Below, piece by piece: positions 1-54,392 of a stretch of DNA of 64,000 bases; within the stretch, counting starts at the first letter, position 1, and every line of letters begins with the position of its first letter. The notes under the pieces are model-generated. The model did not search any database. It had not been told where the DNA came from and saw nothing but the letters and a program-made list of their open reading frames with translations. This stretch comes from a virus: the IMG/VR virus record IMGVR_UViG_3300021375_000013, positions 35,765 through 99,764 of that record. One strand, 5' to 3'. A program made the translations under genes and the position numbers.

Positions 1-3000
1 TGTACATTCTTGGTGGTACTGAATTAAGACAGGGTGATGTTAGGGCATCTATATTCTATGATAAAGATACTACATCAAGATATCTGAATCCAAATGGTAC
101 ATCAAGAGTAAACGAAATTGAAATCACCGATACTATAAGAATGACTAATTATGGTATTGGTATTACTGGTACATATACATCGACAAGATTACAAACTATC
201 TTTAATATGGATGACCAGTATTCCATCGCACAAGATGGTAATGCTACCAATAATGCATATGGTTTATATTGGTCTCACCCGAATGCAGGTTCATTAGGTG
301 GTGCTAACAACTTAAATGACCATGGTTTATTGATTATCAATAATGGTTCATTTAGAGCGGCAATATCAAGTAGAGCAGTATTTAGTTCTGATGTTAGAGG
401 TACACAATTCTATGATTACAATAACACAGGATATTATGTAAATCCAGCTGGTCAATCTCATATGAATACTCTTACCTTAGCAGGTAATAGAATTGGATTC
501 ATCAATCCAGCATTTGATGCTGAAATTAGAGTATCTGATAGTAACCCAGATGGAACTGGTGCAGAATTTACATTCTATGGTGATACTGGAGCTAGAAATG
601 CACAACTTTCAGCTGAAGTAGGTAGTTTTAACGCAAGAGTTAGAACACCTATAATGTATGATTACAATGATAGTGGATATTATGTTGACCCTAATTCACT
701 TACTAATCTTAATAACTTAACTGTACAAGGTACATTAAACTTAAATGGTACTGTTGATTTAGGTGATGATTATGAAATAGATGTTCATAAAACAATAGCT
801 ATTAACTCAACATTAAATGCAAGTGGAACTCAAGCTCGTAGATTTGAAATTGCTAGAATTGCAATGGATTATAACGATTGGAATGGTACTGGTACATTTG
901 AAGTAGAATTACATGAACAATATTATGGTAGAGGTTCTAAAAAGACATACCAAGTATTTTGGGGATATAACAACGCTTACCAAGTAAGATTAGTTGATGC
1001 TAATATTTATGGTAACAATCATTTTAGAGTAACGATTGGTTCCCCAGTAACAATTAGTGGTGATATTAGATATGTACCTGTTTATGTAGATGTAAGATAC
1101 TATACTCAGGTAAAAGCAAGAGTTAGAACTACTAGGTCTGTAACTTATACTGATAATACACCTGCTAGAAGTTGGGCATATATAAATAAATCACCAGGTG
1201 CATCTAACATAGGAGATTTTAGTGCTGATAATATTATTTATAAAACTGAATCAAATATTGCAGCAGATATTTTCTATGATGCAAACAATACTGGTTACTA
1301 TGGTAACTTCGCCTCTACATCTTATATGAATGATGTAAGAGCTAACATTTTCTACGAAAGAGAAAACACCGCATACTACTTTGGTAGTTCACAGGGTGAT
1401 GCAAGAATGCGTAACGTTAGATTTAATGAAGTTAGAATTGAAAACGGCGTTACAATTCAATCTGTAAATGGTAATGGTAGAATTTATCTTGGTGGTAACT
1501 TCCACATAGATGCTCAAAATGGTAATGATTTATACCTCAACTATTATTCTGGTCGAAGAACAAGAACTTACTATTCATCAAATAGAGAAGCTTGGAGGTC
1601 TGATACTGACGGTATTGTTTATGCATTCAACCAACATCGTTCACCAATCTATTACGATTATAATAATACAGGTTATTACTCTGACCCTTCAGGCGCTTCT
1701 AATTTCAATACATCTATAAGAGCAACTGAGATTTACGCAAGAAACTGGTTCAGAAACGATAATAGTGGTGAAGGTTTATACAACCAAGCAACTGGAATGC
1801 ATTGGTATTCTGATTCATCATCTCGTTGGAGATTATATTCTGGTAGTTCATCAACTGCACAAATTTTATTCACAACATCTGGTAACTCAGCTAGAGGATA
1901 TGTTTACGCAACTAACTCAAATGAAATCGGTTTCTTAGATGCTGGTGGAAGTTGGGCAATGAGACATCAAAATGATAATGGTACTTATTTCTATACTGAT
2001 AATAGTACATTAGAATTCAGAGTAGGTAGAGATACCGTAACTGGTAACTATGGTACTGTTCAAACTTCATCTACTAGAGGTGGTTGGGGTGGATACTCAA
2101 TCAATGGTGGTTGGGTGTTTATGCATGACCACTCAAACGCAGCTGGTATCTTTAACGATTACGAAAATGAGTGGGCTATCTATATGTTGAGAAACTCATA
2201 TGTTGAGTTGATGTACAATGGTACTTGGGAATTGGCAACTCGGAGTGGATATGGTTTAGCTAGAGGTTCAATGAGAGCACCTCTATTCTATGATTCTAAT
2301 GATACTGGATATTATATAGACCCTAATTCAACATCGAATACTGCACTTCGTATGAGAGGTGGAGCATTATTTGGACCAAACCAAAGTTGGGGTGAATACC
2401 TTGCAGTTGGTGGTAATGGTAGATGGACTAGTTCTTACGCAAGTGTTGCTTCAACAAATGGTAACTTACACTTAGATGCAAGAAGTGGAAGAAGTATGTA
2501 CCTAAACTGGTATACTGGTGGTACTGTTTATGTAAATGGTGCAATGCAAGCAAACATTTACTACGATAGAGATAGTACTTCTTATTATGGTAACTTTGCT
2601 TCTACATCTTATATGAATGATGTAAGAGCTAATATTTTCTATGATAGAAATAATACCGCATATTACTTTGGTAGTGGTTCTGGTGATTCTAGATTCAATA
2701 GAGTAACTGGTAATTACTTCATCAATGATGGTTCAGTATCATCAGATGATAGATTTGGTATATTCTGGTCATCTGATAGAAGTGAAGCATACGCAATCTT
2801 TAGAGAATCAGGTGGATGGTCTTATAGATATCCTGATTTAAGAATCGCATTCCATACGGGTATTAAGTTTGGAGCAAACTCATCTTACAATGGTATGCGT
2901 TTCTACAACGATTACAATATGGCAACGCAGGTGATGTCTGTTAACAACGCTACTGACCCATTGGGTGGAAACAATGTGTATGTTAACTACAACCTACAAG

Positions 3001-4283
3001 CTGGAGATTCGTTAAGAGCACCAATCATTTATGATTCAAATAATACTGGTTATTATTTCAATGGTGCATCTGCACACTCTACGAGATTCGAAGGTGTGAG
3101 TAATAGAACGATGGCTTATATGGGATTACCTGGTCATACGAGAAATAGTGGTGAGTATTATAGAAGTAGACCTCGTCAAACTGGTGATACTAACTATTGG
3201 ACTGGTGCTTATGGTTGGGGTAGACAGGATATGAATGTTGTTTCAACTTGGGGTTCTGGTTTCATCGATTCTTGGAGTAATCCAGGTAACCAACCTTCAG
3301 GTACATCTCACTGGGTAGGGATGCAAGCATTCCACTATCGTAGTTCAAACACAGGTGGTTATGGATGGCAAATGGTTGGTGGACCAATTACCAACTTGAG
3401 ATTCAGAAGTTCTTGGAGTGGATGGAGAAGTTGGAGAACTATTCCTGTTCTTGATGAGAATAGTAGTAATGGTGGTTCAATGTATGCTGGTAGATATTAT
3501 GATTCAAATAATACTGGTTACTACACAGACCCCGCATCTACATCTCAAATGAGTAGTATATATGTAAACAATTGGTTTAGAGCACAAGGTTCAACAGGTC
3601 TTTACTTCCAAGATAGAGGATATGGACTTCGTTCAGTTGGTGATGAAGGTGGACAATACGGAACTGTTTCTACATATGGTAGTATAAACGGATGGGAAGG
3701 ATGGTCAATGAATGGTCGTTCACTATTAATGCACAACAATAGTAGTTCAACTGGTTTATATAATGATGTAAATAATGAGTGGTTATGTGAAGCTATTCAC
3801 AACTCTCACTTCTACATTCACTATAATGGTAGTTGGAAAGCAAGAACTGAAAGTTGGGGTCTTAGAATTAACGATAACTTATACGCTGAGGGTAACGTAA
3901 TCGCTTACTACTCAGATATGAGATTAAAGGATAAAGAGGGTGATATTGAAAACGCTCTTGAAAAAGTTGGTAAACTTAATGGTTTCTATTATAGAAACAA
4001 TAAGGAAGCCAATATGATTGGATGGGGTGGAACTGAGCTACAAGTCGGTGTATCTGCACAAGATGTTAAATCAGTTCTTCCTGAAATTGTACATCCTGCT
4101 CCAAAAGCTGAGAGATTGGGATATGATTATATGACTGTTGATTACGATAGGTTAACTCCATTATTAGTTAACGCAATCAATGAACAAAATGATATAGTTA
4201 AATCACAAAAAGAAGAAATTGAATATTTAAAGTCAGAACTCTCTGAATTAAAAGAGATGATGAAAGAATTATTAAACAAATAA
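1..4283 (+). CDS. Tail fibre with C-terminal S74-type intramolecular chaperone (5' end outside window)
   Basis: The reading frame is open from base 3, so the ATG at 141 is internal and the gene begins before the window. The protein is built from about eleven copies of a short module of the form FYDxNNTGYYxDP, joined by beta-rich Gly/Ser/Asn segments. Two long blocks are internally duplicated (about 1290-1390 with 2575-2680, and 2080-2270 with 3690-3870). The last ~130 residues begin with SDMRLK, the Ser...Lys signature of S74 intramolecular chaperones that trimerise a fibre and then cut themselves off, and end in a coiled coil rich in Glu, Lys and Leu. I infer a trimeric receptor-binding fibre at the tail tip. 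Which fibre (long, short or side) cannot be told from sequence. Confidence 0.85.
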   Translation, partial: YILGGTELRQGDVRASIFYDKDTTSRYLNPNGTSRVNEIEITDTIRMTNYGIGITGTYTSTRLQTIFNMDDQYSIAQDGNATNNAYGLYWSHPNAGSLGGANNLNDHGLLIINNGSFRAAISSRAVFSSDVRGTQFYDYNNTGYYVNPAGQSHMNTLTLAGNRIGFINPAFDAEIRVSDSNPDGTGAEFTFYGDTGARNAQLSAEVGSFNARVRTPIMYDYNDSGYYVDPNSLTNLNNLTVQGTLNLNGTVDLGDDYEIDVHKTIAINSTLNASGTQARRFEIARIAMDYNDWNGTGTFEVELHEQYYGRGSKKTYQVFWGYNNAYQVRLVDANIYGNNHFRVTIGSPVTISGDIRYVPVYVDVRYYTQVKARVRTTRSVTYTDNTPARSWAYINKSPGASNIGDFSADNIIYKTESNIAADIFYDANNTGYYGNFASTSYMNDVRANIFYERENTAYYFGSSQGDARMRNVRFNEVRIENGVTIQSVNGNGRIYLGGNFHIDAQNGNDLYLNYYSGRRTRTYYSSNREAWRSDTDGIVYAFNQHRSPIYYDYNNTGYYSDPSGASNFNTSIRATEIYARNWFRNDNSGEGLYNQATGMHWYSDSSSRWRLYSGSSSTAQILFTTSGNSARGYVYATNSNEIGFLDAGGSWAMRHQNDNGTYFYTDNSTLEFRVGRDTVTGNYGTVQTSSTRGGWGGYSINGGWVFMHDHSNAAGIFNDYENEWAIYMLRNSYVELMYNGTWELATRSGYGLARGSMRAPLFYDSNDTGYYIDPNSTSNTALRMRGGALFGPNQSWGEYLAVGGNGRWTSSYASVASTNGNLHLDARSGRSMYLNWYTGGTVYVNGAMQANIYYDRDSTSYYGNFASTSYMNDVRANIFYDRNNTAYYFGSGSGDSRFNRVTGNYFINDGSVSSDDRFGIFWSSDRSEAYAIFRESGGWSYRYPDLRIAFHTGIKFGANSSYNGMRFYNDYNMATQVMSVNNATDPLGGNNVYVNYNLQAGDSLRAPIIYDSNNTGYYFNGASAHSTRFEGVSNRTMAYMGLPGHTRNSGEYYRSRPRQTGDTNYWTGAYGWGRQDMNVVSTWGSGFIDSWSNPGNQPSGTSHWVGMQAFHYRSSNTGGYGWQMVGGPITNLRFRSSWSGWRSWRTIPVLDENSSNGGSMYAGRYYDSNNTGYYTDPASTSQMSSIYVNNWFRAQGSTGLYFQDRGYGLRSVGDEGGQYGTVSTYGSINGWEGWSMNGRSLLMHNNSSSTGLYNDVNNEWLCEAIHNSHFYIHYNGSWKARTESWGLRINDNLYAEGNVIAYYSDMRLKDKEGDIENALEKVGKLNGFYYRNNKEANMIGWGGTELQVGVSAQDVKSVLPEIVHPAPKAERLGYDYMTVDYDRLTPLLVNAINEQNDIVKSQKEEIEYLKSELSELKEMMKELLNK

Positions 4284-20306: not shown

Positions 20307-21218
20307 ATGCTATTAAAAGTAGGTTCAAGAGGAGAAGATGTAAAAGCAGTTCAACAATTCTTAGGATTGGGTGCTGATGGTATCTTTGGTAAAGGAACGG
20401 AACAAGCCGTAAAAGATTTTCAATCCTTAAATGGATTAACTGCTGATGGTTTAGTTGGAAAAGGAACTTGGGCAGCAATGGGATTAAATGATACTGATGT
20501 AACTGGACAAGAAGAATCAGATGCACCAGATATCTACTCAAAGAAAAAAGTAAACGAAGGTGGATTGGAGTATGTAGAATACTTTATGCCTGAAGATGAA
20601 TACAAACATGGGCCTGTAAAATACGAATACCTTTTCTTACACCACACCGCTGGATGGCATAATCCATACAAATGTATTGAGTATTGGGATAGAGATGGTG
20701 GAACTATTGCAACTGAATGGGTAATGGGTGGACCATCAGTAAAAGGAAACAACGAAGTATATGATGGAGAATTAGTACAATGTTTCCCACAAGGTAACTA
20801 CGCATGGCACTTAGGTAAAAATGGTTCACAACATATGCATGTACACTCAGTAGGAATTGAGATTTGTAACTTTGGATATGTGGTAAATGGAAAAACTTAT
20901 GCTGGTACTCAAGTAGCAGATTCACAAATCGTAACTCTAAAAGAAGAATTTAGAGGACACAAAACTTGGCATAGATATTCTGATAAACAAATCGAACAAT
21001 TAGAAAAGTGGATGAAGTTTATCGGTGAAAGAGATGGAATTGATATCAGAGCTGGATTACCTACTTTAATCAAAGAAAAAGGTGCAGCTGCATTTGAGTT
21101 CAACGAAGATGCTTACTATGGTAAAGTAAAAGGAACTTGGACACATACTAATACTCGTAAAGATAAATTCGATTTATTCCCTCAACAAGAGTTGATGGAT
21201 ATGTTAGTATCTCTATAA
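20307..21218 (+). CDS. Endolysin: peptidoglycan-binding domain plus N-acetylmuramoyl-L-alanine amidase
   Basis: Residues 3-60 form a PG_binding_1 domain (GSRGEDVKAVQQFLGL, GIFGKGTEQAVKDFQ). After a linker comes an Amidase_2 domain from about residue 105: LHHTAGW with His112-His113 as probable zinc-site residues, GIEICN with Glu185, and a late THTNTRKDKFDLFPQ segment giving the last His/Lys active-site region. The enzyme would cut the amide bond between muramic acid and the stem peptide at the end of infection. There is no signal peptide, so a holin is needed; a candidate two-helix protein is at 58624. The domain order (binding domain first) suits a Gram-negative host. Confidence 0.9.
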   Translation: MLLKVGSRGEDVKAVQQFLGLGADGIFGKGTEQAVKDFQSLNGLTADGLVGKGTWAAMGLNDTDVTGQEESDAPDIYSKKKVNEGGLEYVEYFMPEDEYKHGPVKYEYLFLHHTAGWHNPYKCIEYWDRDGGTIATEWVMGGPSVKGNNEVYDGELVQCFPQGNYAWHLGKNGSQHMHVHSVGIEICNFGYVVNGKTYAGTQVADSQIVTLKEEFRGHKTWHRYSDKQIEQLEKWMKFIGERDGIDIRAGLPTLIKEKGAAAFEFNEDAYYGKVKGTWTHTNTRKDKFDLFPQQELMDMLVSL

Positions 21219-21232
21219 TATAAAAGTTAGTT

Positions 21233-21781
21233 ATGACACTTACACTTTCTGGTCAAATAGCGGCAGGTAATATAAACCAAGAGTTTGGTAGAGCATATTC
21301 TACCTATATGTCTATTTGGCATGCTAGAAATGGTAGTTATGGTTCTATCAACACTCAATCAGCAAGGTATCCAACAAATGGAATCAGTAAAGCAAATAAT
21401 GGTTATGCTTATTCCGATTGGTATGGATATAGGCATAATGCAGTAAGTGCTACAATAAATCTTTTTCAAAGTGAAAGAAGTGCCGATGCAGATACTAGAG
21501 CTTGGGAATTTAGATATAATGGAACAGCTTTAGGTCAAAGTTGGCAATGGGGAACCACAAGTATACGTGGTTGGCTTCGTATTCCATATGGAAATGGCTT
21601 AGATGTTTATTTTGATAATAGTATTGGTTGGGGTTCATCTTGGACAACTGCTTTTAGAGCTATATATTCAAATCAAAGAGGATGGCTTTTAAATGTAAGA
21701 GAACCTGCAAGAAATTATAGAAATTATTCTAGATTATATGTTCAATCATCAGAAAATGTTAGTATTTATAATCAAAGTTAA
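21233..21781 (+). CDS. Fibre-like or minor virion protein
   Basis: This 182-residue protein begins MTLTLSGQIAAGNINQEFGR, a start pattern common in tail-fibre and fibre-associated proteins of marine phages, and is rich in Trp, Tyr, Ser, Asn and Gly as in beta-structured fibres. No enzyme motif is seen. It lies between the endolysin and two paralogous small genes, in a late gene block that ends with the halogenase. A receptor-contact role is inferred from composition only. Confidence 0.65.
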   Translation: MTLTLSGQIAAGNINQEFGRAYSTYMSIWHARNGSYGSINTQSARYPTNGISKANNGYAYSDWYGYRHNAVSATINLFQSERSADADTRAWEFRYNGTALGQSWQWGTTSIRGWLRIPYGNGLDVYFDNSIGWGSSWTTAFRAIYSNQRGWLLNVREPARNYRNYSRLYVQSSENVSIYNQS

Positions 21782-21792
21782 AAAAAGTTATT

Positions 21793-22041
21793 ATGGCAAA
21801 TCATTATTTTAAAGAAAGAGATTCTTATTTTAAGTTAGTAGATGAAACACATGAGGTAATTTGTGTAACTACTAACTTTACAAATAAATGCATAGCTATT
21901 AGTTTTGATAACGATGGTGGATATGAAAATATGAGAGATGCATATATAGGTGGTGATGTGGCTGGTGTTGAACTTATATCTGAAGAACTCTTTGAGGCAA
22001 AAAGAGATGAAGTAAAGGATTACATAATTGAAAATCTATAA
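21793..22041 (+). CDS. Small protein, paralogue 1 of a tandem pair
   Basis: An 82-residue acidic protein. It shares a frame of residues with the next gene: an N-terminal aromatic cluster followed by DxYFKxxD, a central YENMRDAYI, and a C-terminal LISEELFEAKRDEVKDYIIENL. The two are clearly tandem paralogues. No family is recognised. It is 2 nt upstream of its partner and forms one unit with the halogenase gene. Confidence 0.75.
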   Translation: MANHYFKERDSYFKLVDETHEVICVTTNFTNKCIAISFDNDGGYENMRDAYIGGDVAGVELISEELFEAKRDEVKDYIIENL

Positions 22042-22043
22042 AA

Positions 22044-22346
22044 ATGGGTAATTGGTTTGTAAAATCTTTTGATAACTACTTTAAATTTATAGATGATGAT
22101 TCATCTATGATAGTATTAACATCAGGTAGTATAAATGAAAGTGGTAGTGTAGATACTGTAATTTCTTACAATTTTTTATCTGAGAGTGTACCTAAATATG
22201 AAAGTATTAGAGATTCTTTTATATCATCATCATTTTTTACATCATCATATACAGGTTCATCAGAACCAGTACCACAAATTATTAGTGAATCCCTTTGGGA
22301 AGAAAAGAAAACAGAATTAAAAAGTTATATAATAAATAGTTTATAA
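22044..22346 (+). CDS. Small protein, paralogue 2 of a tandem pair
   Basis: A 100-residue paralogue of the preceding protein, with NYFKFIDD, YESIRDSFI and a C-terminal IISESLWEEKKTELKSYIINSL. It has an extra Ser/Thr/Val stretch in the middle. Its stop codon directly abuts the halogenase start (22347). The aromatic-rich N-termini (Trp, Phe, Tyr) make these proteins conceivable halogenase substrates or fibre accessories, but no evidence beyond adjacency exists. Confidence 0.75.
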   Translation: MGNWFVKSFDNYFKFIDDDSSMIVLTSGSINESGSVDTVISYNFLSESVPKYESIRDSFISSSFFTSSYTGSSEPVPQIISESLWEEKKTELKSYIINSL

Positions 22347-23879
22347 ATGAAAATAGTTATAGCGGGTGGAGGAACTGCTGGTTGGTTATCAGCATTATTC
22401 CTAGCCAAACAAAATCTACATAGAGATAAACCAGCATACGATATCACTTTAATAGAAAGTGAAGATATTCCTATAATCGGAGCTGGTGAAGGTTCAACTG
22501 GAGTACTACAAAAAGTACTTTTATCAACACTAACACAATTAGAAGGATTTGGAGAGCAAGAGTTTTTTCAACATTGTAACACTACATTTAAATTAGGAAT
22601 TGATTGTATTGATTGGAATGGAGTAGGTGATAGATTCTTTGAATCGTTATCTGGAACACAAACTTCATTGTGGCCATTGGATAGAGATTTTACTCTTTGT
22701 TCAAAATATGGAGTAGCTGCAGAATCTAGTCCTAACAAATATCTTTGGGAAAAAAATCTAACACCATTTTTAAAAGCTGAAAGTAGTGATAGTTACGAAA
22801 CTGGATATGCTTATCACTTTGATGCACATAAAGTTGGTGAGTGGTTTAAAAAGATTGCATTAGAAAACGGAATCAAACTTCAAATAGGTACAATAACTGA
22901 TACAAATCTAAATCCTAAAAATGGTGAATTACAAAAAGTAATTTTAAAAGATGGAACTGAAATAGAATCTGATTTTTGGATTGATTGTACTGGATTCAAT
23001 AGAGTATTAAGTAATGCAGTTGGAGCAGAGTGGGTTTCATATTCAGAATACTTACCAATCAATTCAGCATTAGTTTACACACATCAATATGAAGAGAATG
23101 AAGAAATACCAAATGTAACAACTGCTTGGGCAATGCCAAATGGTTGGATGTGGCAAATTCCAACTCAAGAAAGATTAGGATGTGGATATTGTTATTCTGA
23201 TAAGTTTGTATCTGAGGAACAAGCTCTGAAAGAACTACAAGAAGTTACTGGTAGAAAGATAACACCTCTTAGAACTATTAAGTTTGATAGTGGTAGGTTA
23301 AACGAAGTTTGGAAAAAGAATGTACTTTCAATAGGATTATCATCTTCCTTCTTAGAACCATTAGAAGCAACATCGATACATTCATCTATAATTCAGTTAG
23401 TACAATTAACACAACATCACTTATCACCTTACAAAGAGGATATGATGAGAGAATCAAACGTCAAAGCAAATAATGAACACTTTAATATGATGTTAGATGA
23501 ATTTAGAGGTTTGATTCAAATGCACTATATTACAAAAAGAAATGATACTCCATTTTGGAAATATGTACACAATGATTTGAAAAGAGACCCATTGGTTGAA
23601 AGTATTTTAGAAGTATGTAAATGGAGAGTTCCCAATGCTAATGATTTTCCACATTACAATGGTTCAGCTGGTTGGGGTGTGTTTAATTGGATATTAGCAG
23701 GTAATGATTTAATTAGTAAAGAGGTATTAGATAAATCCTTACATACTCATAATTTTGAAAAATCATCTGAACAAATTTATAAACATATGGTAAAACAGTA
23801 TACATTTGATAGTAAACAACACTTTCCACATACTGATTTTATCAAATGGACAAAAGATTTCGCAAAAAATCCAAAATAA
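22347..23879 (+). CDS. Flavin-dependent (tryptophan-type) halogenase
   Basis: The 510-residue protein matches the flavin-dependent halogenase family throughout. GGGTAGW (7-13) binds FAD. The catalytic Lys is Lys82 in CNTTFKLGIDCIDW. YAYHFDAHKVGEWFKK and DFWIDCTGFNRVL are family segments. WMWQIP (267-272) is the WxWxIP signature, and FLEPLEATS contains Glu340, the second catalytic residue. Such enzymes make hypohalous acid from FADH2, O2 and halide and pass it to an electron-rich aromatic group. All key residues are present, so it is probably active. A flavin reductase is not seen nearby and would come from the host. The substrate is unknown; viral halogenases are known from cyanophages. Confidence 0.93.
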   Translation: MKIVIAGGGTAGWLSALFLAKQNLHRDKPAYDITLIESEDIPIIGAGEGSTGVLQKVLLSTLTQLEGFGEQEFFQHCNTTFKLGIDCIDWNGVGDRFFESLSGTQTSLWPLDRDFTLCSKYGVAAESSPNKYLWEKNLTPFLKAESSDSYETGYAYHFDAHKVGEWFKKIALENGIKLQIGTITDTNLNPKNGELQKVILKDGTEIESDFWIDCTGFNRVLSNAVGAEWVSYSEYLPINSALVYTHQYEENEEIPNVTTAWAMPNGWMWQIPTQERLGCGYCYSDKFVSEEQALKELQEVTGRKITPLRTIKFDSGRLNEVWKKNVLSIGLSSSFLEPLEATSIHSSIIQLVQLTQHHLSPYKEDMMRESNVKANNEHFNMMLDEFRGLIQMHYITKRNDTPFWKYVHNDLKRDPLVESILEVCKWRVPNANDFPHYNGSAGWGVFNWILAGNDLISKEVLDKSLHTHNFEKSSEQIYKHMVKQYTFDSKQHFPHTDFIKWTKDFAKNPK

Positions 23880-23880
23880 A

Positions 23881-23912
23881 TTTGGTAATCTCAAAATAAT
23901 TTCTTATATTTG
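23881..23912 (+). promoter_or_regulatory. Bacteroidota-type promoter TTTG-N20-TATATTTG (upstream of gp32, distal)
   Basis: TTTG at 23881-23884 and TATATTTG at 23905-23912 with a 20-nt spacer. A 24-codon ORF starts 9 nt downstream at 23922. Confidence 0.85.
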
Positions 23913-23921
23913 TATCAACAA

Positions 23922-23996
23922 ATGAGAAAATCAGCATTTCAAAAAAAAAGTAAAAAAGATTTGGAATTGTTGAAAACTTTTCGTATATTTGTATAA
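23922..23996 (+). CDS. Possible 24-residue leader peptide upstream of gp32
   Basis: An ATG 9 nt after the distal promoter opens a 24-residue, strongly basic peptide (MRKSAFQKKSKKDLELLKTF and four more residues). Its last codons are made from the -7 element of the next promoter. It may be a leader peptide or chance; coding cannot be proved from length. Confidence 0.3.
   Translation: MRKSAFQKKSKKDLELLKTFRIFV
23960..23991 (+). promoter_or_regulatory. Bacteroidota-type promoter TTTG-N20-TATATTTG (upstream of gp32, proximal)
   Basis: TTTG at 23960-23963 and TATATTTG at 23984-23991, again exactly 20 nt apart and 79 nt downstream of the first. Tandem promoters suggest high demand for gp32. Confidence 0.85.
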
Positions 23997-24109: not shown

Positions 24110-24934
24110 ATGGCACTAGATTTAAGCGCAATCAGAGGTAGACTGAACAAACTACAAAACACTTCCAATAGAACATCTAATCTATGGAAACCCACACCGG
24201 GTAAACATCAAGTAAGAATCGTTCCTTACAAATTCTCTCCTGAGAATCCTTTCATTGAATTATTCTTCCATTACAACATCAACAACAAAACGTATTTGTC
24301 TCCTTCTTCTTTTGGAAGACCAGACCCTATCGTTGAGTTTGCTGAAAAGTTGAAAAGAATGGGTGATAAAGAAGATTGGAAAGCAGCTAAGAAGATGGAA
24401 CCAAAATTAAGAACTTTTGTACCTGTACTTGTAAGAGGAGAGGAATCAGAAGGAGTTAAGTTCTGGGGATTCGGAAAGACTGTTTATCAGGAAATCTTAG
24501 GTTACATCGCTGATCCTGATTATGGAGATATTACTGACCCTACCAATGGTAGAGATATTACTATCGAATATACATCAGCTGAAGATGCAGGAACTTCTTA
24601 TCCTGTAACTACTATCCGTGTTAAACCTAATGTAACTCCATTAGGAGAAGATGCAACGGCAAATCAAAACTTTATGGAAACTCAAAGTAACATTACTGAT
24701 ATCTATTCAGAATTATCTTACGATGAGTTGAAATCAGTATTAGAAGGTTGGTTGAACCCAACAGCTGAAGAAGCTGAAGAGAGTGTTTCACAACAATCTC
24801 TAGCAACTCCATCAGCACCGAAAACTGAAGCTAAAGCAGCACCAGCTGCAGCACCTTCAAACGCGGTAAGTACTGAAGAGAAAAAGAAAATGGATGATGT
24901 TGCATCAGCATTTGATGATTTATTTAACGGATAA
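24110..24934 (+). CDS. 32: Single-stranded DNA-binding protein (T4 gp32-like)
   Basis: The 274-residue protein has the gp32 order: a short basic N-terminus (about 1-25), an OB-type core with WKPTPGKHQVRIVPYKFSPE, NPFIELFFHYNI and FWGFGKTVYQEIL, and a C-terminal tail of Ala/Pro linker ending in DDVASAFDDLFNG, the acidic protein-interaction tail. It coats ssDNA during replication and recombination. No Cys is present, so the zinc site of T4 gp32 is absent. The gene leads a recombination-replication operon under tandem promoters, 10 nt before uvsX. Confidence 0.92.
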   Translation: MALDLSAIRGRLNKLQNTSNRTSNLWKPTPGKHQVRIVPYKFSPENPFIELFFHYNINNKTYLSPSSFGRPDPIVEFAEKLKRMGDKEDWKAAKKMEPKLRTFVPVLVRGEESEGVKFWGFGKTVYQEILGYIADPDYGDITDPTNGRDITIEYTSAEDAGTSYPVTTIRVKPNVTPLGEDATANQNFMETQSNITDIYSELSYDELKSVLEGWLNPTAEEAEESVSQQSLATPSAPKTEAKAAPAAAPSNAVSTEEKKKMDDVASAFDDLFNG

Positions 24935-29158: not shown

Positions 29159-29569
29159 ATGGAAGTTCTTGAGTATCTCAAACATCATGTAAAAACAGAC
29201 ATTGCACCATCTCCTATACATGGAATTGGTACATTTGCACTAACTGATATAAAAGTTGGTGAACCAGTTTTTATGTTATGGCCTAACGAAAGTAGAATTT
29301 ATACTATTGATAGAAATGAGTTTGAAGAACTTCCAAACTATTCAAAAAAAATGATTCTTAAATCATATCTAAACAAACCGGAATATCCTCTTATTTGGTT
29401 TAGATTATTTAAGGATTCTTACTTTAATTTAGCAAATCCGTTAGTTTATACTAACACCGCTGGTGAAGATGGTAACTTTGATTCAATGAAAAGAAAAGCT
29501 ATCAAACCAATTAAAGCAGGGGAAGAAATTTTAGGTAATTATAAATTAGAAGATACACTATTAAAATGA
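29159..29569 (+). CDS. SET-domain protein, probable lysine methyltransferase
   Basis: The 136-residue protein is a minimal SET domain: SPIHGIGTFALTDIKVGEPV at residues 18-37 is the SAM-binding N-terminal motif, and IKPIKAGEEILGNY (115-128) is the C-terminal GEE(L/I)xxxY motif with the catalytic-type Tyr128. The usual NHSxxPN motif is replaced by YTNTAGEDGN, so activity needs testing. SET proteins transfer methyl groups from SAM to lysine. It follows the H1-like gene by 5 nt and overlaps the MazG-like gene by 4 nt (ATGA), so the three are one transcription unit. Confidence 0.8.
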   Translation: MEVLEYLKHHVKTDIAPSPIHGIGTFALTDIKVGEPVFMLWPNESRIYTIDRNEFEELPNYSKKMILKSYLNKPEYPLIWFRLFKDSYFNLANPLVYTNTAGEDGNFDSMKRKAIKPIKAGEEILGNYKLEDTLLK

Positions 29570-33165: not shown

Positions 33166-33369
33166 ATGCCAATACTAAGGGGACAGACTCATCCTTCCGC
33201 AAAATTAACGGATGAGCAAGTTTTAAATATCAGAAAACTATGGAAAATGGGACACCGAAATGTTCGAGTTATGGCTCGTAACAATAAGTGTTCTTCAGCC
33301 AACATCATTAAGATTGTTAAAAATCAAACTTGGACACACTTGAATGAATTTTGGTCTGGTAGTTTATGA
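33166..33369 (+). CDS. Small helix-turn-helix DNA-binding protein
   Basis: The 67-residue protein reads SAKLTDEQVLNIRKLWKMGH ... MARNNKCSSANIIKIVKNQTW, the pattern of the HTH modules found alone or at the end of HNH homing endonucleases (LTDEQVxxIRxLW, then a recognition helix and xxxTW). Here there is no nuclease part, so it may be a regulator or a remnant. It lies 3 nt after thioredoxin and overlaps the Mom-like gene by 4 nt, so it is part of that operon. Confidence 0.65.
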   Translation: MPILRGQTHPSAKLTDEQVLNIRKLWKMGHRNVRVMARNNKCSSANIIKIVKNQTWTHLNEFWSGSL

Positions 33370-34133
33370 AAGAAGAAAAAACATATTGTGATACTTCGAA
33401 ACTTTCCATTCGTCTTATCACAAAATCAGTAGCTAAAGATATCATTGTAAACAACCATTATAGTGGTTTGTGGACAAAGGTATCTTACGCAATTGGTTTG
33501 TTTACTTCAGATGTTGAGGAACATCCCTTCTTTGATAATATAGAAGATAAACTAATTGGAGTAGCTTGTTATGGAGACCCAATTGGTAGAAGTGCTGGGC
33601 AATCGATTTCCCCTTTATTAGAAAGAACCGAAGTTTTAGAACTAACCCGATTATTTGTATTTGATAATTATGGTTCAAATATAGAGAGTTGGTTCTTAGG
33701 TCAAACTTTTGATTGGTTAAGGGAGAATGTACCACAAATCAAAGCACTTATTTCATATTCAGACCCTAAAGAAGGTCATTGTGGTACAATTTACCAAGCA
33801 ACTAATTGGTTGTATCAAGGTAATAAATTAAGATTCAATGATAGTTGGGATTTCAGATGGGAAGAAGGTGGTGAATGGCACCACGGAAGAACTTCCTATG
33901 TAAAATTTGGAACAAATAATCCCAAAGAAATACAAAAAATGACACCATCTACATTTTGGATAAAGAAGAATCCAAGAAAACATAGATATGTGTACATTTT
34001 AACCAAAGGTGGTGAAAGAAGGAAGTTGTTAAAGAATATTAAACACCCAACTTTCCCTTATCCTAAAGAAAATGAAGAATTTGTGGAAGAAATTCATAGA
34101 ATGGACCCAATAAATTTGGAAATTACAAAATAA
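33366..34133 (+). CDS. Mom-like GNAT-fold DNA-modification protein, paralogue 1
   Basis: The 255-residue protein fits the Mom family (GNAT fold): NNHYSGLW near the N-terminus, VLELTRLFVFDNYGSNIESW, and SYSDPKEGHCGTIYQATNWL with YQG after it. In phage Mu, Mom converts adenine to N6-(methylcarbamoyl)adenine and protects phage DNA from restriction. A second copy lies at 34300. Substrate and target cannot be read from sequence. It overlaps the small HTH gene upstream by 4 nt. Confidence 0.7.
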   Translation: MKEEKTYCDTSKLSIRLITKSVAKDIIVNNHYSGLWTKVSYAIGLFTSDVEEHPFFDNIEDKLIGVACYGDPIGRSAGQSISPLLERTEVLELTRLFVFDNYGSNIESWFLGQTFDWLRENVPQIKALISYSDPKEGHCGTIYQATNWLYQGNKLRFNDSWDFRWEEGGEWHHGRTSYVKFGTNNPKEIQKMTPSTFWIKKNPRKHRYVYILTKGGERRKLLKNIKHPTFPYPKENEEFVEEIHRMDPINLEITK

Positions 34134-34153: not shown

Positions 34154-34312
34154 ATGACAGAAGAAAGAGAAATAGAAGAAATTCTAATGGAATCTCACTC
34201 ATTTGGGTTGAGAAACGAAGTGATGAAAACTGCTTCTGAAATTATGGGTAGTAATCCTAAGATAAGAAGAGTAGATGCGTATCACCAAGCTTTTAATGAA
34301 TGGGTAAAGTAG
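34154..34312 (+). CDS. Small acidic helical protein between the two Mom-like genes
   Basis: A 52-residue protein (starts MTEEREIEEILMESHSFGL) with its own promoter, overlapping the next start by 13 nt. The N-terminal half is an acidic amphipathic helix. No family is recognised. The overlap and dedicated promoter support it being translated and linked to the second Mom-like gene. Confidence 0.6.
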   Translation: MTEEREIEEILMESHSFGLRNEVMKTASEIMGSNPKIRRVDAYHQAFNEWVK

Positions 34313-35106
34313 AAGGAAAACATTATTGTGATGCAACTAAGGTGAGTATAGCACCTATTTCTAAATCTATCGCTAAAGATATGATTATTAAGAAACATTA
34401 TACTCATGCTTGGACTATGTGTAGATATGCTTTAGGTATTTACCATCAGATGGAAGAAAACGATATCTTTGGAAACGATAAAAAGTTAATAGGGGTAGCT
34501 GTATATGGATTTCCAGTAGGAGCAAAAGCATCCACTTCAGTTTGTGAAGGCTTAACAAAAGATAATATCTTAGAACTTACTCGTTTATATGTTGATGATG
34601 GTTATGGTTCTAATATAGAGAGTTGTTCATTAGGAAAAACGTTTCAATGGTTAAAGGATAACGATAAAAATATCAAAGTTCTTCTATCTTACGCTAATAA
34701 TGGACAAGGACACTTAGGTGGGATTTACAAAGCAACCAATTGGATTTATCAAGGTTTGAATACCGATATCGCTTTGATGCCAAATTGGGGTATCTCACTA
34801 ACCAAAGAACCTTATGATTGGTTACATAGTAGAACTGTGTTTAATAAATGGGGAAGTGGTAACTTAGAACACCTTAGAAAAGAAATTGGTAAACAAGGTT
34901 ACAAAGAATTTTGGAGAAGAGAAGAACCACCAAAACATAGATACATTCAAATACTATCTCAGAATAAAAAAGAGAAAAAGGATTTGATGAAAAGGTTGAA
35001 GCATGAAATCAAACCTTATCCAAAAGAGTTGAATGATTACAATACTGAAGTGGTACATCATACAACATATGCACCTGAAGAAAGTAACGAAATAAACTTT
35101 TGGTAA
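34300..35106 (+). CDS. Mom-like GNAT-fold DNA-modification protein, paralogue 2
   Basis: The 268-residue paralogue of 33366-34133 shares KHYTHAW, ILELTRLYVDDGYGSNIES, LLSYANNGQGHLGGIYKATN and a C-terminal PPKHRYIQIL. The Asp of the SYxDP motif of copy 1 is Asn here (SYANN), so the two copies may differ in activity or partner. The start is chosen at the ATG overlapping the small upstream gene. Two diverged copies suggest different target sequences, or an active plus a non-catalytic subunit. Confidence 0.7.
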   Translation: MGKVEGKHYCDATKVSIAPISKSIAKDMIIKKHYTHAWTMCRYALGIYHQMEENDIFGNDKKLIGVAVYGFPVGAKASTSVCEGLTKDNILELTRLYVDDGYGSNIESCSLGKTFQWLKDNDKNIKVLLSYANNGQGHLGGIYKATNWIYQGLNTDIALMPNWGISLTKEPYDWLHSRTVFNKWGSGNLEHLRKEIGKQGYKEFWRREEPPKHRYIQILSQNKKEKKDLMKRLKHEIKPYPKELNDYNTEVVHHTTYAPEESNEINFW

Positions 35107-46781: not shown

Positions 46782-48167
46782 ATGACAAAAAAGAAAAAGA
46801 TTCTTCTCCTTTCAGATGATATGAGGATGAGTAGTGGTATAGCTACTATGAGTAAAGCATTGGTAATGGGTACTCTTAAAGAGTATGATTGGTTCCAAGT
46901 AGGTGCAGCAATTAAACATCCAGACAAAGGTAAAGTTTTAGATTTATCTGCAGATATGCAGAAAAGAACTGGTGTAGAAGATGCATCGGTTAAAATCTTA
47001 CCTTGGAATGGTTATGGAAATGCAGATTTGTTAAGACAAATTATGAATTCCGAAAAACCTGATGCTATCCTTCACTTTACTGACCCACGTTATTGGACTT
47101 GGTTATATGAGATGGAACATGAAGTAAGAGAAAATTGTCCAATTCTTTATTATACTATTTGGGATGATTTACCAGACCCACTATACAATAGAAATTACTA
47201 CGAAAGTTGTGATTGGTTGGGTGCTATTTCAAGACAAACTTATGGAATTGTAAGTAGGTTAACTTCTTTAACCGATAAACCAACTTGGAAACCTCATTCA
47301 GATTGGCAAGTATCTTATGTACCACATGGTATAAACCAAAATGATTTTAAGCCAATTGATGTACCTTCTGATTTTAGAAATAAAATATTAGCAGGTAATG
47401 ATTACGATTTTATCTTCTTTTGGTCAAATAGAAACATTAGAAGAAAACAACCATCTGATGTTATTATGGCATTTAAGGAATTTTGTGATAAAATTGGTAA
47501 AGATAAAGCATCAAAAGCTGTGTTACTAATGCACACAACACCAAAAGACCAAAATGGTACTGATTTACCAACAGTTGCTGAAACACTTGCACCTGATTGT
47601 AATGTAGTATTTTCAACTGCTAAGTTAAATACTGAACAATTGAATTACCTTTATAATATGGCTGATTGTACAGTTAATATTGCTGGTAATGAGGGGTTTG
47701 GATTAACAACTGCAGAATCGGTAATGAGTGGTACACCAATAATTGTAAATGTAACTGGTGGATTGCAAGACCAATGTGGATTTAAAGTAGATGGTAAATA
47801 TCTAACTGCTGATGATTACATTAAAATCGGTTCACTTCACAAATGGAGAGATTGGGAAGATAAAGTAACTTGGGGAGAATGGGCTACACCAATTTGGAGT
47901 AGAGCACAATCTTTGACAGGTTCAGTTCCAACTCCTTATATTTGGGATGATAAAATCGATGTAATTGAGTTATCAGAAAAAATGGAGAAAGTTTATAATA
48001 CTCCAAAAGAAGAATTAACAAAGAATGGTTTAGAAGGTAGAAGAGCATTTATTGAGGATATGGGATTATCTGCAGAAAATATGTGTCAACAACTAAAAAA
48101 TGGTGTTGAATCTACTTTAAAAAATTGGAAACCAAGAAAAAGATACGAACTATTTAAAATTGCTTAA
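46782..48167 (+). CDS. Glycosyltransferase (GT-B, family 4-like)
   Basis: The 461-residue protein begins KKILLLSDDMRMSSGIATMS and has the donor-site segment NMADCTVNIAGNEGFGLTTAES followed by GTPIIVNVTGG, the classic GT4 E-x7-E pattern. It would use a nucleotide sugar. This is the first gene of a 12-kb sugar-decoration island and has no signal or membrane segment, so it is cytoplasmic. The acceptor may be a virion protein, DNA or host glycan. Confidence 0.88.
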   Translation: MTKKKKILLLSDDMRMSSGIATMSKALVMGTLKEYDWFQVGAAIKHPDKGKVLDLSADMQKRTGVEDASVKILPWNGYGNADLLRQIMNSEKPDAILHFTDPRYWTWLYEMEHEVRENCPILYYTIWDDLPDPLYNRNYYESCDWLGAISRQTYGIVSRLTSLTDKPTWKPHSDWQVSYVPHGINQNDFKPIDVPSDFRNKILAGNDYDFIFFWSNRNIRRKQPSDVIMAFKEFCDKIGKDKASKAVLLMHTTPKDQNGTDLPTVAETLAPDCNVVFSTAKLNTEQLNYLYNMADCTVNIAGNEGFGLTTAESVMSGTPIIVNVTGGLQDQCGFKVDGKYLTADDYIKIGSLHKWRDWEDKVTWGEWATPIWSRAQSLTGSVPTPYIWDDKIDVIELSEKMEKVYNTPKEELTKNGLEGRRAFIEDMGLSAENMCQQLKNGVESTLKNWKPRKRYELFKIA

Positions 48168-48168
48168 A

Positions 48169-48489
48169 ATGATTTATACGTTAAAAACACAAGAATACTT
48201 TAAAGCATTTAGTAGTAAAGATGTTAAAAAATTATCTCAACTATATTCTCCAACTATTCGATTAGTTGATTGGGATATTAATATTACAGGAAGAGAAGAA
48301 GTTTTAAATGTAAATTCTGAATTATTCAATTTAGATTTCGAATTGACTCTACACAATGTATATCAGAGTGGAGAAAAAACTTTTAATGAAATTACAATTA
48401 CGATTGGTGATGATGTGTTAGAAATTATGGATGTAATAACGTTCAACCAATTAAACCAAATAGAAAATATTACAGCATATAAAAGATAA
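48169..48489 (+). CDS. SnoaL/NTF2-like small protein
   Basis: Start taken at the ATG 48169, 1 nt after the previous stop, giving 106 residues. TQEYFKAFSSKDVKKLSQLY, SPTIRLVDWDINITGREEV and a following series of strands resemble the SnoaL/NTF2 cone fold, used by isomerases, hydrolases and binding proteins. The many polar residues inside the pocket region suggest an enzyme, but no specific activity can be named. It is embedded in the sugar island. Confidence 0.65.
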   Translation: MIYTLKTQEYFKAFSSKDVKKLSQLYSPTIRLVDWDINITGREEVLNVNSELFNLDFELTLHNVYQSGEKTFNEITITIGDDVLEIMDVITFNQLNQIENITAYKR

Positions 48490-48495
48490 GAAGTT

Positions 48496-49797
48496 ATGAA
48501 CAAACCTTTATTAGTATATCAAGCTCCTGTATTTACTCGAAGTGGTTATGGTGACCATGCTAGAGATATTCTCAGAAGTTTATTTGAATTGGATAGGTAT
48601 GATATTAAGATTGTACCAACACGTTGGGGAAATACTCCTCAAAATCAAGCTGACCCAACAACTGAATTTGGGCAGAAAATGTTATCTAACGTTGCAACTA
48701 GAGTTGATAGAAAACCAGATATTTTTATTCAAATGTCTGTTGCTAATGAGTTTGAACCAAAGGGTAATTTTAATATTGGTATTACTGCTGGTGTAGAAAC
48801 TACTGTATTACCAAAAGAATTTTTGGATGGTGGTAATAAGATGGATTTAATTATAGTACCATCTCAGTTTACTAAATCACTATTTGATAAAACACAATTC
48901 CAAGAACAAGATAAACAAACTAAACAAATAATTAAAACTTTCAAAAGTGAAAAACCTTGTGAAGTTTTATTTGAAGGGGTTAATAAAGAGTTATATGAAA
49001 ATCCACAATTTACTGAAGTAGATGTATTAGATGGAATTGAAAGTGATTTTAATTTCTTATTTGTTGGACATTGGTTAAAAGGTGGAATCGGACAAGATAG
49101 AAAAGATGTAGGAATGGTTATTAAAACATTCTCTACTGTTTTCAAATATCTACCTAAAGATAAAAGACCAGGTCTTATACTAAAAACATCATCAGCTGGA
49201 TTTTCTGTAATGGATAGAGAAAACACAAGACAAAAAATAGAACAAGCCATAAAAGGTTTAGAAGATGTACCACCAATTTATTTATTACATGGTGATTTAA
49301 AAGAATCTGAAATGGTTGAACTTTATAATCATTCTAAAGTAAAAGCAATGATTTCATTCACAAAAGGTGAGGGGTATGGTAGACCTTTAGCAGAATTCGC
49401 TACAACTGGTAAACCAATCATTGTTTCTAAGTGGAGTGGGCATGTAGATTTTTTACCTGAAGATAATACTGTTTTCTTATCGGGTCAATTGACAGATGTG
49501 GATAAATCAGCAGCAGATAAATTCTTATTAAAAGAATCCAAATGGTTTACAGTAAATTATTCTGAAGCCGCTAATAAGATTTATAAGGTATTCAATGAAT
49601 ATGATTCTTACCTAAAAAAATCACAAGGTTTAAGAGCAAATATTTTGAGTAATTTTACAATGGAAAAAATGACTGAACAATTGGGTAAACTTATGGATAA
49701 GTATGTTGGAAATATTCCAGTTCAAAAACCATTTCAACTACCTAAATTGAAAAAACAAGAACCTAAACTTAAATTACCAAAACTAAATAAGTTATAA
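48496..49797 (+). CDS. Glycosyltransferase (GT-B, family 4-like)
   Basis: The 433-residue protein begins LVYQAPVFTRSGYGDHARDI and has FTKGEGYGRPLAEFATTGKP, the GT4 donor-binding E-G-x-G-x-P-x-x-E motif. The middle contains FVGHWLKGGIGQDRKDVGMV. The C-terminus is a Lys/Pro-rich tail (KLPKL repeats). Its stop overlaps the next start (ATAATG). It is one of several glycosyltransferases likely acting in series. Confidence 0.88.
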   Translation: MNKPLLVYQAPVFTRSGYGDHARDILRSLFELDRYDIKIVPTRWGNTPQNQADPTTEFGQKMLSNVATRVDRKPDIFIQMSVANEFEPKGNFNIGITAGVETTVLPKEFLDGGNKMDLIIVPSQFTKSLFDKTQFQEQDKQTKQIIKTFKSEKPCEVLFEGVNKELYENPQFTEVDVLDGIESDFNFLFVGHWLKGGIGQDRKDVGMVIKTFSTVFKYLPKDKRPGLILKTSSAGFSVMDRENTRQKIEQAIKGLEDVPPIYLLHGDLKESEMVELYNHSKVKAMISFTKGEGYGRPLAEFATTGKPIIVSKWSGHVDFLPEDNTVFLSGQLTDVDKSAADKFLLKESKWFTVNYSEAANKIYKVFNEYDSYLKKSQGLRANILSNFTMEKMTEQLGKLMDKYVGNIPVQKPFQLPKLKKQEPKLKLPKLNKL

Positions 49798-50261
49798 TGA
49801 ATTACGCATCACAATATAGAACATTTATTGATATAGGAAGTCGAATTACAAAAGGAAGTATTCAACCTTACGGATTATATAAACTATCTACATACAAATA
49901 TGTTGATGAAGGAAGAAAAACTTTAAGAGGAAGTGAAGAAACTTTAATATTCGTTACAGGTATTTATGAAAAAAAAGTACAAGCTCTTAAATTATCCAAT
50001 ATCCCACCAGTAAAGTTTTTAAGATGGTTTAAACAAATTGCTAACAACACATATAAAGATAGTGGATTAGACCAAATTCCATTATATTCTTTTGAAAAAC
50101 CAATGGATGTTGGTGGTAATAGAATTTATGATATATACATAAAAAGAAATAAAGAATTTGTAGCAAAAGGAGCAGCTTTTAGAACTTATAAGTTAGATGG
50201 TATCCAATATGCAACTGAAGTATTTTTAAAGAAAAACGTTTTAGAACAATATTATGGTTAA
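49797..50261 (+). CDS. Hypothetical protein within the sugar island
   Basis: A 154-residue basic protein with mixed alpha/beta pattern (YKLSTYKYVDEGRKTLRG, ETLIFVTGIYEKKVQALKL, VKFLRWFKQI). No transferase motif is seen. It overlaps both neighbours by a few bases. It could be a virion or DNA-binding protein stranded among the sugar genes; no function is assigned. Confidence 0.65.
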   Translation: MNYASQYRTFIDIGSRITKGSIQPYGLYKLSTYKYVDEGRKTLRGSEETLIFVTGIYEKKVQALKLSNIPPVKFLRWFKQIANNTYKDSGLDQIPLYSFEKPMDVGGNRIYDIYIKRNKEFVAKGAAFRTYKLDGIQYATEVFLKKNVLEQYYG

Positions 50262-50883
50262 TGTTACATATGCAATTACAGTTTGTAATGAGATAAATGA
50301 GATTACAAAATTAGTAAACTTTCTTCATCCAAGAATCCAATCAGAAGATGAGATTTTGATTCAATATGATGAAGGTGGTGTAACTGATGATGTGAGAGGA
50401 TATTTACGAATTATAAATGATTTACATGATAATGTAAATGTAATTGGATTCCCACTTAATAAAGATTTTGCATCTTATAAAAATAACTTAAAGAATCATG
50501 CAAAGGGTATCTTCATTTTCCAAATAGATGCTGATGAATTACCAAATGAATATTTGATTACAAATATGCATGATTTATTAGAAGCAAATTTGGATATTGA
50601 TTTATTTTTTGTACCAAGAGTAAACACAGTTAAAGGATTGACACCAGAACACATCCAAAAATGGAGATGGAATGTAAATGAAAAAGGATGGGTGAATTGG
50701 CCTGATGTTCAGACACGAATTTATAGAAGAACTTCTGAAATAGAATGGGAAGGTAAGGTACATGAAAGAATTAAAGGTTACAACACAATGACTTATTTAC
50801 CATTAGAGGAAGATTTTGCATTGTATCACCCAAAAGATATAGATAGACAAGAAAAACAAAATGCTTTATACGAAACAATATAA
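50254..50883 (+). CDS. Glycosyltransferase family 2-like
   Basis: The 209-residue protein begins VTYAITVCNEINEITKLVNF and has FIFQIDADELPNEYLI with the DxD metal motif, then the WPDVQTRIYRR and HERIKGY segments of family-2 transferases. It is short for the family but contains the complete core. It overlaps both neighbours by one to eight bases. Confidence 0.85.
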   Translation: MVNVTYAITVCNEINEITKLVNFLHPRIQSEDEILIQYDEGGVTDDVRGYLRIINDLHDNVNVIGFPLNKDFASYKNNLKNHAKGIFIFQIDADELPNEYLITNMHDLLEANLDIDLFFVPRVNTVKGLTPEHIQKWRWNVNEKGWVNWPDVQTRIYRRTSEIEWEGKVHERIKGYNTMTYLPLEEDFALYHPKDIDRQEKQNALYETI

Positions 50884-51461
50884 TGGGACAACACAATTTT
50901 TCCGAAGAAGTTATAGTAGAACTCTTCAAAAGAGAACCAATAGATGTTTGGATAAATTCCTTTGGAGGGTGTAGGTCAAACTATATCAGAGATTGTATCA
51001 AAGATAAGTACACCACTTACAACTTTGCTTATGAAATGAAAGCATGTCATTACATCAGACCTTTGGATGTACAAGTTGGTAGTGGTATTTTTTGTTATAC
51101 TGAAGATGTTGGTATCGCAATATCATCTCAAATTAAAAGAGGAATGTATCATAACTTTCAGAAATTAATGAGAGGTGATAATGAAGTTCCATTTAGTGTT
51201 GATATTTGGTTAGATAATATTGATAAACAAATTGATAATTGGACTAAACCATCTAACTTCCCAATTGTAATTATCAATACTGATGTTGTTGGTGATTATA
51301 AAGATAAATTTGAAGAAATTTACGAAGTAGAAATGCTGTCATTTAAAAAAAGAAGTACTTCAGAGTATATTGATGAAGTAAAACCATACTCAGATAAAAT
51401 AGAAAAAATAAATACTAAATTAAGAAACTTACCAAACTTTAGTGTAAATGAAAAAATTTAA
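50883..51461 (+). CDS. Sulfotransferase-like protein
   Basis: The 192-residue protein has an N-terminal loop INSFGGCRSNYIRD, comparable to the 5'-phosphosulfate-binding loop of sulfotransferases, and later FPIVIINTDVVGDYKDKFEE. The full family signature is not clear, so it is a probable rather than certain sulfotransferase. It overlaps the next gene, a clearer sulfotransferase, by 14 nt. Confidence 0.5.
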   Translation: MGQHNFSEEVIVELFKREPIDVWINSFGGCRSNYIRDCIKDKYTTYNFAYEMKACHYIRPLDVQVGSGIFCYTEDVGIAISSQIKRGMYHNFQKLMRGDNEVPFSVDIWLDNIDKQIDNWTKPSNFPIVIINTDVVGDYKDKFEEIYEVEMLSFKKRSTSEYIDEVKPYSDKIEKINTKLRNLPNFSVNEKI

Positions 51462-51966
51462 CAAAATATTTGTATGTGGTTTATCAAGAACTGGTAGTAA
51501 AAGTTTAGGTGATTATTTTAAGCTATTAGATTTAAAAGTTCAACATAATGGAGGACAAGTTCTTAATCCTTCATTATTTTCTGAAATTGATGTTTTATTG
51601 GATGATAAACAAACCCAATTCTTATATGAAGTTTTAAATCAGAAATTTCCAAATTCACTTTTTGTTTATACAAATAGAAATGATGAAAGTTGGGTAAATA
51701 AAATAATCGATTGGAAGTCAGATTATAGCTACATCTATCACCAATCATTTGGGATAGGTGAAGGAACAACCCCAGATACAAAAGAAATGTTAACTTCTTT
51801 TAAACAACAACATTTTATTAGATTTAAATCATTTGCAACTGAATTACCAAATGATAGAGTTTTATATTTGGATTTAGAAGATAATGAAAAGGGTGAAAAA
51901 GTTTGTGAATTTTTAAATGTAGAATATAATCCAAAATTAGAATATCCAAACATAAAATATAGATAA
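51448..51966 (+). CDS. Sulfotransferase family protein
   Basis: The 172-residue protein begins KIFVCGLSRTGSKSLGDYFK, the P-loop-like 5'-PAPS site of small sulfotransferases (Sulfotransfer_4 type), followed by a FVYTNRNDESWVNKIID segment corresponding to the 3'-phosphate site. It would transfer sulfate from PAPS onto a sugar or other hydroxyl group. Together with the preceding gene it suggests sulfated glycans, common in marine surface sugars. Confidence 0.68.
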   Translation: MKKFNKIFVCGLSRTGSKSLGDYFKLLDLKVQHNGGQVLNPSLFSEIDVLLDDKQTQFLYEVLNQKFPNSLFVYTNRNDESWVNKIIDWKSDYSYIYHQSFGIGEGTTPDTKEMLTSFKQQHFIRFKSFATELPNDRVLYLDLEDNEKGEKVCEFLNVEYNPKLEYPNIKYR

Positions 51967-52739: not shown

Positions 52740-52741
52740 GA

Positions 52742-54388: not shown

Positions 54389-54392
54389 TAAG

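Follow-up and report, generated by a model that had tools for sequence, protein, structure and literature searches.

The gene at 22347-23879 encodes a complete flavin-dependent halogenase and closes a compact cassette of four genes, which is inherited as a unit in one clade of environmental phages. Throughout this clade the enzyme is linked to a fast-evolving protein of 182 residues that is rich in tryptophan and tyrosine. As the best explanation we tentatively propose that the halogenase modifies Trp or Tyr residues of this partner, which is probably displayed on the virion. In the following, the window denotes the whole stretch of 64,000 nucleotides that was analyzed, part of a virus record of 99,764 bp.

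Phage halogenases as well as peptide halogenases are already known. What is new, and undescribed in the open literature searched, is a clade of phages whose halogenase is coupled to, and swapped together with, one aromatic-rich partner. Since the annotation of the cyanophage genes it has been an open matter what such enzymes do in phages, the sole proposal having been called speculative (PMC2984593), and the combination of one halogenase clade with one partner turns this into a single testable question. If the proposal is true, it would provide the first example, in the literature searched, of a virus particle being halogenated by an enzyme, halogenation would join the list of modifications known from virions, and a natural halogenase acting on the scale of a protein would be useful for protein engineering.

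Organization of the cassette

The four genes follow each other with tight spacing in the order 182-residue protein, two paralogous small proteins and halogenase. The cassette and its flanks comprise:

20307..21218, plus strand: amidase endolysin with PG_binding_1 and Amidase_2 domains (Pfam, PHROG), left flank
21233..21781, plus strand: 182-residue Trp/Tyr-rich protein (9 Trp, 16 Tyr), putative halogenation substrate as judged from composition and linkage
21793..22041, plus strand: 82-residue small protein A, paralogue of its 100-residue neighbour (alignments)
22044..22346, plus strand: 100-residue small protein B, ending directly ahead of the halogenase ATG, with a possible role as adaptor or chaperone
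22347..23879, plus strand: flavin-dependent halogenase (PF04820), 510 residues, complete open reading frame with ATG start (Pfam, PHROG and PDB matches)
23905..23914, plus strand: TATATTTGTA promoter-like element of the Bacteroidota -7 type, after the cassette and upstream of gp32
23984..23993, plus strand: second TATATTTGTA promoter-like element, upstream of gp32
24110..24934, plus strand: gp32-like single-strand DNA binding protein (Pfam, PHROG), right flank and start of the replication block

An initial annotation, made from the sequence of the window, had assigned the halogenase to a late gene block. This agrees with the upstream side, where the cassette closes a series of genes with tail, structural and lysis functions, but not with the downstream side, where a gap of 230 bp containing the two TATATTTGTA elements is followed by the replication block (gp32, UvsX, RNase H, helicase). 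No promoter-like TATATTTGTA element belongs to the cassette itself.

Catalytic landmarks of the halogenase

The Pfam family Trp_halogenase (PF04820) matches the gene product with 324.9 bits at a cut-off of 21 (E 1.1e-96), covering profile positions 1-416 of 458. Matching is likewise observed for phrog_2928 'tryptophan halogenase' (E 2.4e-106), and the best PDB match is PrnA (E 1.1e-59). Both the GxGxxG FAD motif and the WxWxIP motif are present, and the equivalence of Lys82 and Glu340 to the catalytic lysine and Glu346 of PrnA was counted on the alignment of the PDB match. The landmarks are located as follows:

22365..22385, plus strand: FAD-binding motif GGGTAGW, residues 7-13 (direct reading; conserved in the alignments of relatives)
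22590..22592, plus strand: codon of the catalytic Lys82 (aligned with the catalytic lysine of PrnA)
23145..23162, plus strand: WMWQIP motif (WxWxIP), residues 267-272 (alignment of relatives)
23364..23366, plus strand: codon of Glu340 (aligned with Glu346 of PrnA)

Among 106 clusters of viral halogenases, Lys82 is found in 104 and Glu340 in 92, with Gln instead in 12. In enzymes of this family FADH2, O2 and a halide give rise to HOX, which is relayed by the lysine, and the glutamate activates the ring. Halogenation chemistry is thus a well supported prediction for the window enzyme, and the completeness claimed in the initial annotation, with all four landmarks, is confirmed by the profile and PDB matches. 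The gene is intact and under purifying selection, with a dN/dS of 0.175 (Nei-Gojobori, median of 410 pairs of relatives) vs 0.075 for UvsX. A chance open reading frame or a decayed gene is excluded for 22347-23879.

The residues that clamp free tryptophan in PrnA are Tyr443, Tyr444, Glu450, Phe454 and Trp455. Glu450 and Phe454 lie opposite a gap in the phage profile and Tyr444 and Trp455 opposite Tyr/Trp, in a region where the alignment is weak. Since the clamp is gapped and aligned with low confidence, 'tryptophan halogenase' is best taken as the name of the family and no more. A flavin reductase had been reported as missing nearby. Consistent with this, PF01613 has no match in the 99.8-kb record, which is linear and may be incomplete; the same search was positive in 13 of 14 control genomes.

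In the halogenases of L039, L043, S-RIM44 and S-PM2 the glutamate is replaced by glutamine (FLEPLQAT), as in the 12 of 106 clusters given above. The replacement may signal a different substrate class.

The 182-residue partner and the small proteins

With 13.7% Trp plus Tyr, as compared to a median of 6.0%, the 182-residue protein is the most aromatic-rich of all proteins of the window, followed by the long tail fibre (141-4283). The proportion rises to 18-22% in more distant relatives and is highest where two halogenases are encoded, as in L035 and L036 (21%); among background genes only 0.56% reach 13% or more. Eight of the 28 invariant columns of the family are Trp or Tyr. Conserved aromatics of the protein include Tyr36, Tyr58, Trp63, Tyr66, Trp104, Trp114, Trp133 and Tyr145. 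The protein evolves fast (dN/dS 0.465), and elevated dN/dS values are found for the non-enzyme genes of the cassette in general.

An AF2 model of the protein displays a nine-strand β-sandwich formed by residues 72-181 (pLDDT about 90), preceded by residues 1-70 with a pLDDT of about 33, though their sequence is conserved. Foldseek returned weak matches only, to pilin-like Ig folds and to uncharacterised phage proteins. Searches of PHROG, Pfam and isolate phages gave no match for the protein and thus no recognised virion homologue. The term fibre-like, used in the initial annotation for neighbouring proteins, is for the 182-residue protein in line with the β-sandwich model and with the adjacent fibre gene in L035 and L036, but no PHROG or Pfam match corroborates it. 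The N-terminal motif of the protein was also considered as a phage structural motif but is given no weight, as a regular-expression search of the fetched loci gave no second instance.

The 100-residue protein is modelled by AF2 with four strands and two helices (mean pLDDT 78) and has no PDB fold match at E<=0.001. A single-sequence search with the small protein retrieved cassette members only.

Linkage and divergence of the cassette genes

The gene order of the cassette is kept in all close relatives whose contigs are long enough; in many relatives an open reading frame of 203 residues takes the place of the endolysin on the left. Overall, the succession of 182-residue protein, small protein and halogenase is found in three genomic contexts. 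In the lineage of the window it lies between the lysis gene and gp32, in L034 its flanks are unrelated to those of the window, and in L035 and L036 it is situated between a homologue of the long tail fibre and the sheath gene. In L034, L035 and L036, whose halogenases are 48% identical to that of the window, the identity is 38-39% for the 182-residue protein, and a small protein is present as well (about 30% in L035 and L036), whereas the remaining genome is different.

A halogenase-blind search of IMG/VR with the alignment of the 182-residue family alone yielded 24 contigs. The halogenase is located downstream wherever the contig continues, and two contigs end too early. In a tree with 113 tips, the halogenases accompanied by the 182-residue protein form one clade with a support of 0.97, and this clade contains no member lacking the partner.

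Pairwise protein distances among the cassette genes correlate with coefficients of 0.66-0.95, including 0.95 between the 100-residue protein and the halogenase, 0.84 between the 82- and the 182-residue proteins and 0.70 between the 182-residue protein and the halogenase. Halogenase distances correlate with those of the helicase at 0.32 and with those of UvsX at only 0.10, which in combination with the mutual correlation of the cassette genes argues for inheritance of the cassette as a unit. In genome pairs with UvsX more than 94% identical, the cassette genes average 65-84% and gp32 92.5% identity. This divergence next to conserved UvsX and gp32 indicates that recombination swaps the block in genomes that are otherwise conserved. 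Microcystis phage Mel-JY01, which is otherwise syntenic, carries two unrelated genes in the slot before gp32.

Comparison with other halogenases

PF04820 genes are common in environmental phages. A tblastn search identified 81 isolate phage records with relatives of the halogenase, mostly cyanophages and all below 60% identity, and a profile scan of IMG/VR gave at least 590 confirmed stretches that encode such relatives. The rarity implied by the title of the initial annotation is therefore not upheld; its statement that halogenases are known from cyanophages is correct and extends to HTVC008M and VirX1. For the halogenase of the cassette clade one distant bacterial homologue was detected (30%), by search patterns of limited sensitivity.

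Tandem halogenase copies are common in viral loci, arrays of two to four being frequent (L002-L196). Within five genes of the halogenase, the three largest families of 2OG-Fe(II) oxygenases occur near 70, 48 and 36 of the 106 clusters; two of these families match PF13759 and PF13640, and the third, having no Pfam match, was assigned by resemblance. A further typical neighbour is DUF6445. The record of the window itself contains none of these typical neighbours and no second halogenase. A general rule that phage halogenases adjoin aromatic-rich proteins was rejected, since a neighbour with at least 13% Trp plus Tyr is found only in the five clusters with the 182-residue protein out of 106.

In L035 (10001-12046) and L036 (6445-8490) the halogenase is fused at its C-terminus to a DUF6445 domain, which is 2OG-oxygenase-like, and a second halogenase follows directly downstream. 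In a sister lineage outside of the cassette clade, a SET-domain-like gene is positioned directly after the halogenase (L082:5953-7937, L039, L043). It is homologous to 29159-29569 of the window (37% in L039 and L043) and might hint, as a second pointer, at protein modification.

A parallel in gene arrangement is provided by pathways for ribosomal peptides. SrpI, MibH and ChlH halogenate Trp in ribosomal peptides or partly structured precursors (PMC12615548, PMC10858898); the precursor of SrpI is folded only in part, and the enzyme binds to a region of it that is disordered (PMC10858898). In these pathways the enzyme is encoded together with a dedicated ribosomal substrate bearing the target Trp, to which the constant linkage of the halogenase with a Trp/Tyr-rich candidate substrate would be comparable. 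In contrast to these pairs, the partner in the cassette is a β-sandwich protein of 182 residues with many aromatic residues instead of a short core peptide, and the neighbours are lysis, tail and replication genes instead of export or protease genes.

PrnA, PyrH and RebH share the PF04820 fold and the catalytic Lys and Glu with the window enzyme. Their substrate is free L-Trp, which they halogenate in natural-product pathways with a dedicated flavin reductase, whereas PF01613 has no match in the window record; the clamp loop of PrnA (Glu450/Phe454) is the part lying opposite the profile gap. The cyanophage and pelagiphage prnA genes (S-RIM44, S-PM2, P-SSM2, HTVC008M) belong to the same family and are carried by T4-like marine phages, but they are 32-36% identical to the window halogenase and neighboured by 2OG-Fe(II) oxygenases, terminase and tRNAs. 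VirX1 of cyanophage Syn10 (by length probably CPUG_00131; PDB 6QGM) is a flavin-dependent phage halogenase with the same catalytic motifs. As a further similarity, its gene adjoins adhesin-like, glycine-rich genes as well as another halogenase in tandem. It differs by its identity of about 30% and by the lack of the cassette of 182-residue and small proteins. In vitro, VirX1 prefers iodination and halogenates many small aromatics, its natural substrate being unknown (PMC8407142).

Proposed function

By homology to PrnA and RebH, the halogenase would form HOX from host-supplied reduced FAD, O2 and a halide, the host being the likely source of FADH2 due to the lack of a PF01613 reductase in the record. 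Lys82 would then deliver HOX to the activated aromatic ring with the help of Glu340, so that chlorine, bromine or iodine is installed on at least one conserved Trp or Tyr of the 182-residue protein, whose gene lies three positions upstream. The two paralogous small proteins may serve as adaptors or chaperones which keep the partner ready to be modified or assembled. The product would be a β-sandwich protein, probably located on the virion, whose halogenated aromatic surface could alter adhesion, stability or host evasion. The gap opposite the clamp loop, in a weakly aligned region, would fit an enzyme that does not act on free Trp. While the initial annotation left virion aromatic residues, host metabolites and indole-type signals equally open, the cassette linkage together with the Trp/Tyr-rich partner favours the 182-residue protein. 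Its identity as the substrate and its place on the virion are both put forward tentatively. Linkage is no proof of an enzyme-substrate relation, since accessory genes without any functional relation might travel together as a block, and carbohydrate-binding proteins are often rich in Trp and Tyr on other grounds. Moreover, as other phage halogenases adjoin 2OG-Fe(II) oxygenases and not aromatic-rich proteins, the explanation may be limited to the cassette clade. A wider version, in which the clade carries a self-contained cassette for halogenating Trp/Tyr of a dedicated virion protein and the second halogenase and DUF6445 fusion of relatives point to a multi-step aromatic maturation, is conceivable but doubtful.

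The enzyme might instead be an auxiliary metabolic halogenase acting on a free aromatic metabolite of the host (of indole type, a phenolic, a quinone precursor or a signal), thereby harming competitors, poisoning the host or altering signalling, with the upstream genes as passengers. Its fold is that of small-molecule halogenases, the activity of VirX1 on small aromatics would fit (PMC8407142), and protection against antibiotics has been suggested, as speculation, for cyanophage prnA (PMC2984593). We nevertheless regard this as rather unlikely, given that the divergence of the cassette follows the halogenase rather than the flanking genes, that the 182-residue family was not found without a halogenase where the contig continues (24 contigs), and that neither a pathway gene nor a flavin reductase is located nearby. 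Alternatively, the target could be a different protein, with the 182-residue and small proteins acting as targeting or receptor-binding accessories; candidates are the long tail fibre, proteins of the baseplate or proteins on the host surface. The position between fibre and sheath genes in L035 and L036 and the second rank of the fibre in Trp/Tyr richness speak for this option, but the distance of about 17 kb from the fibre gene in the window lineage and the co-divergence of the halogenase with the cassette genes make it improbable.

Loss of halogenation in favour of substrate oxidation by a PF04820 flavoprotein, as a monooxygenase or oxidase, would agree with the Glu to Gln replacement in 12 of 106 viral clusters, which indicates that the reaction may vary across the wider family. 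With Lys82, Glu340, WMWQIP and GGGTAGW all kept in the cassette clade and Lys82 nearly universal, there is little to recommend it here. Least probable is a block for superinfection exclusion or anti-defence, by which the halogenase would modify the 182-residue protein or a cell-envelope target inside the infected cell and not on the virion. Cassette-like swapping, the different genes in the syntenic slot of Mel-JY01 and the elevated dN/dS of the non-enzyme genes could be explained in this way; the placement within a structural and lysis array and the lack of a promoter-like TATATTTGTA element belonging to the cassette speak against it.

Carrier phage and putative host

Judged by its gene content, which includes sheath, tube, gp32, UvsX, helicase, PolB, clamp loader and ribonucleotide reductase of T4 type, the carrier is a T4-like tailed phage (myovirus), in agreement with the tailed phage proposed initially. 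The host is probably a member of the Bacteroidota. The TATATTTGTA element contains TAnnTTTG, the Bacteroidota -7 element, and occurs 11 times as compared to 0.98 expected, its plus-strand copies being mostly situated in short gaps preceding genes. Shine-Dalgarno cores ahead of start codons stay at background level (5 of 56); they are enriched in the pelagiphage and most cyanophage stretches compared, with P-SSM2 as an exception. The nearest isolate relatives of the sheath are those of Mel-JY01, followed by Flavobacterium phages, and Rhodothermus phages are also near. The earlier assignment to Bacteroidota is thus backed by the promoter-like elements, the missing Shine-Dalgarno enrichment and the Flavobacterium and Rhodothermus relatives, although the isolate nearest to it carries the name of a Microcystis phage.

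The T4 late promoter TATAAATA was rejected as a candidate element, as it is not enriched. Promoter-like TATATTTGT(A) elements are enriched about tenfold and could mark the transcription units in this group of phages; they are located at 23905-23993 of the window and in the gaps before 5092, 16345, 27425, 41935, 45644 and 54393.

Elsewhere in the window, tandem Mom-like DNA modification proteins (PF25680, phrog_1384) are encoded at 33366-34133 and 34300-35106. The region 46782-57668 constitutes a sugar/glycan island with glycosyltransferases, a HAD/nucleotidyltransferase fusion and DUF6492. Upstream of the window, a single open reading frame of 5407 residues (L197:127-16350, G000:127-16350) and a further very long one of at least 3479 residues (L198:3-10442) presumably encode giant tail or fibre proteins.
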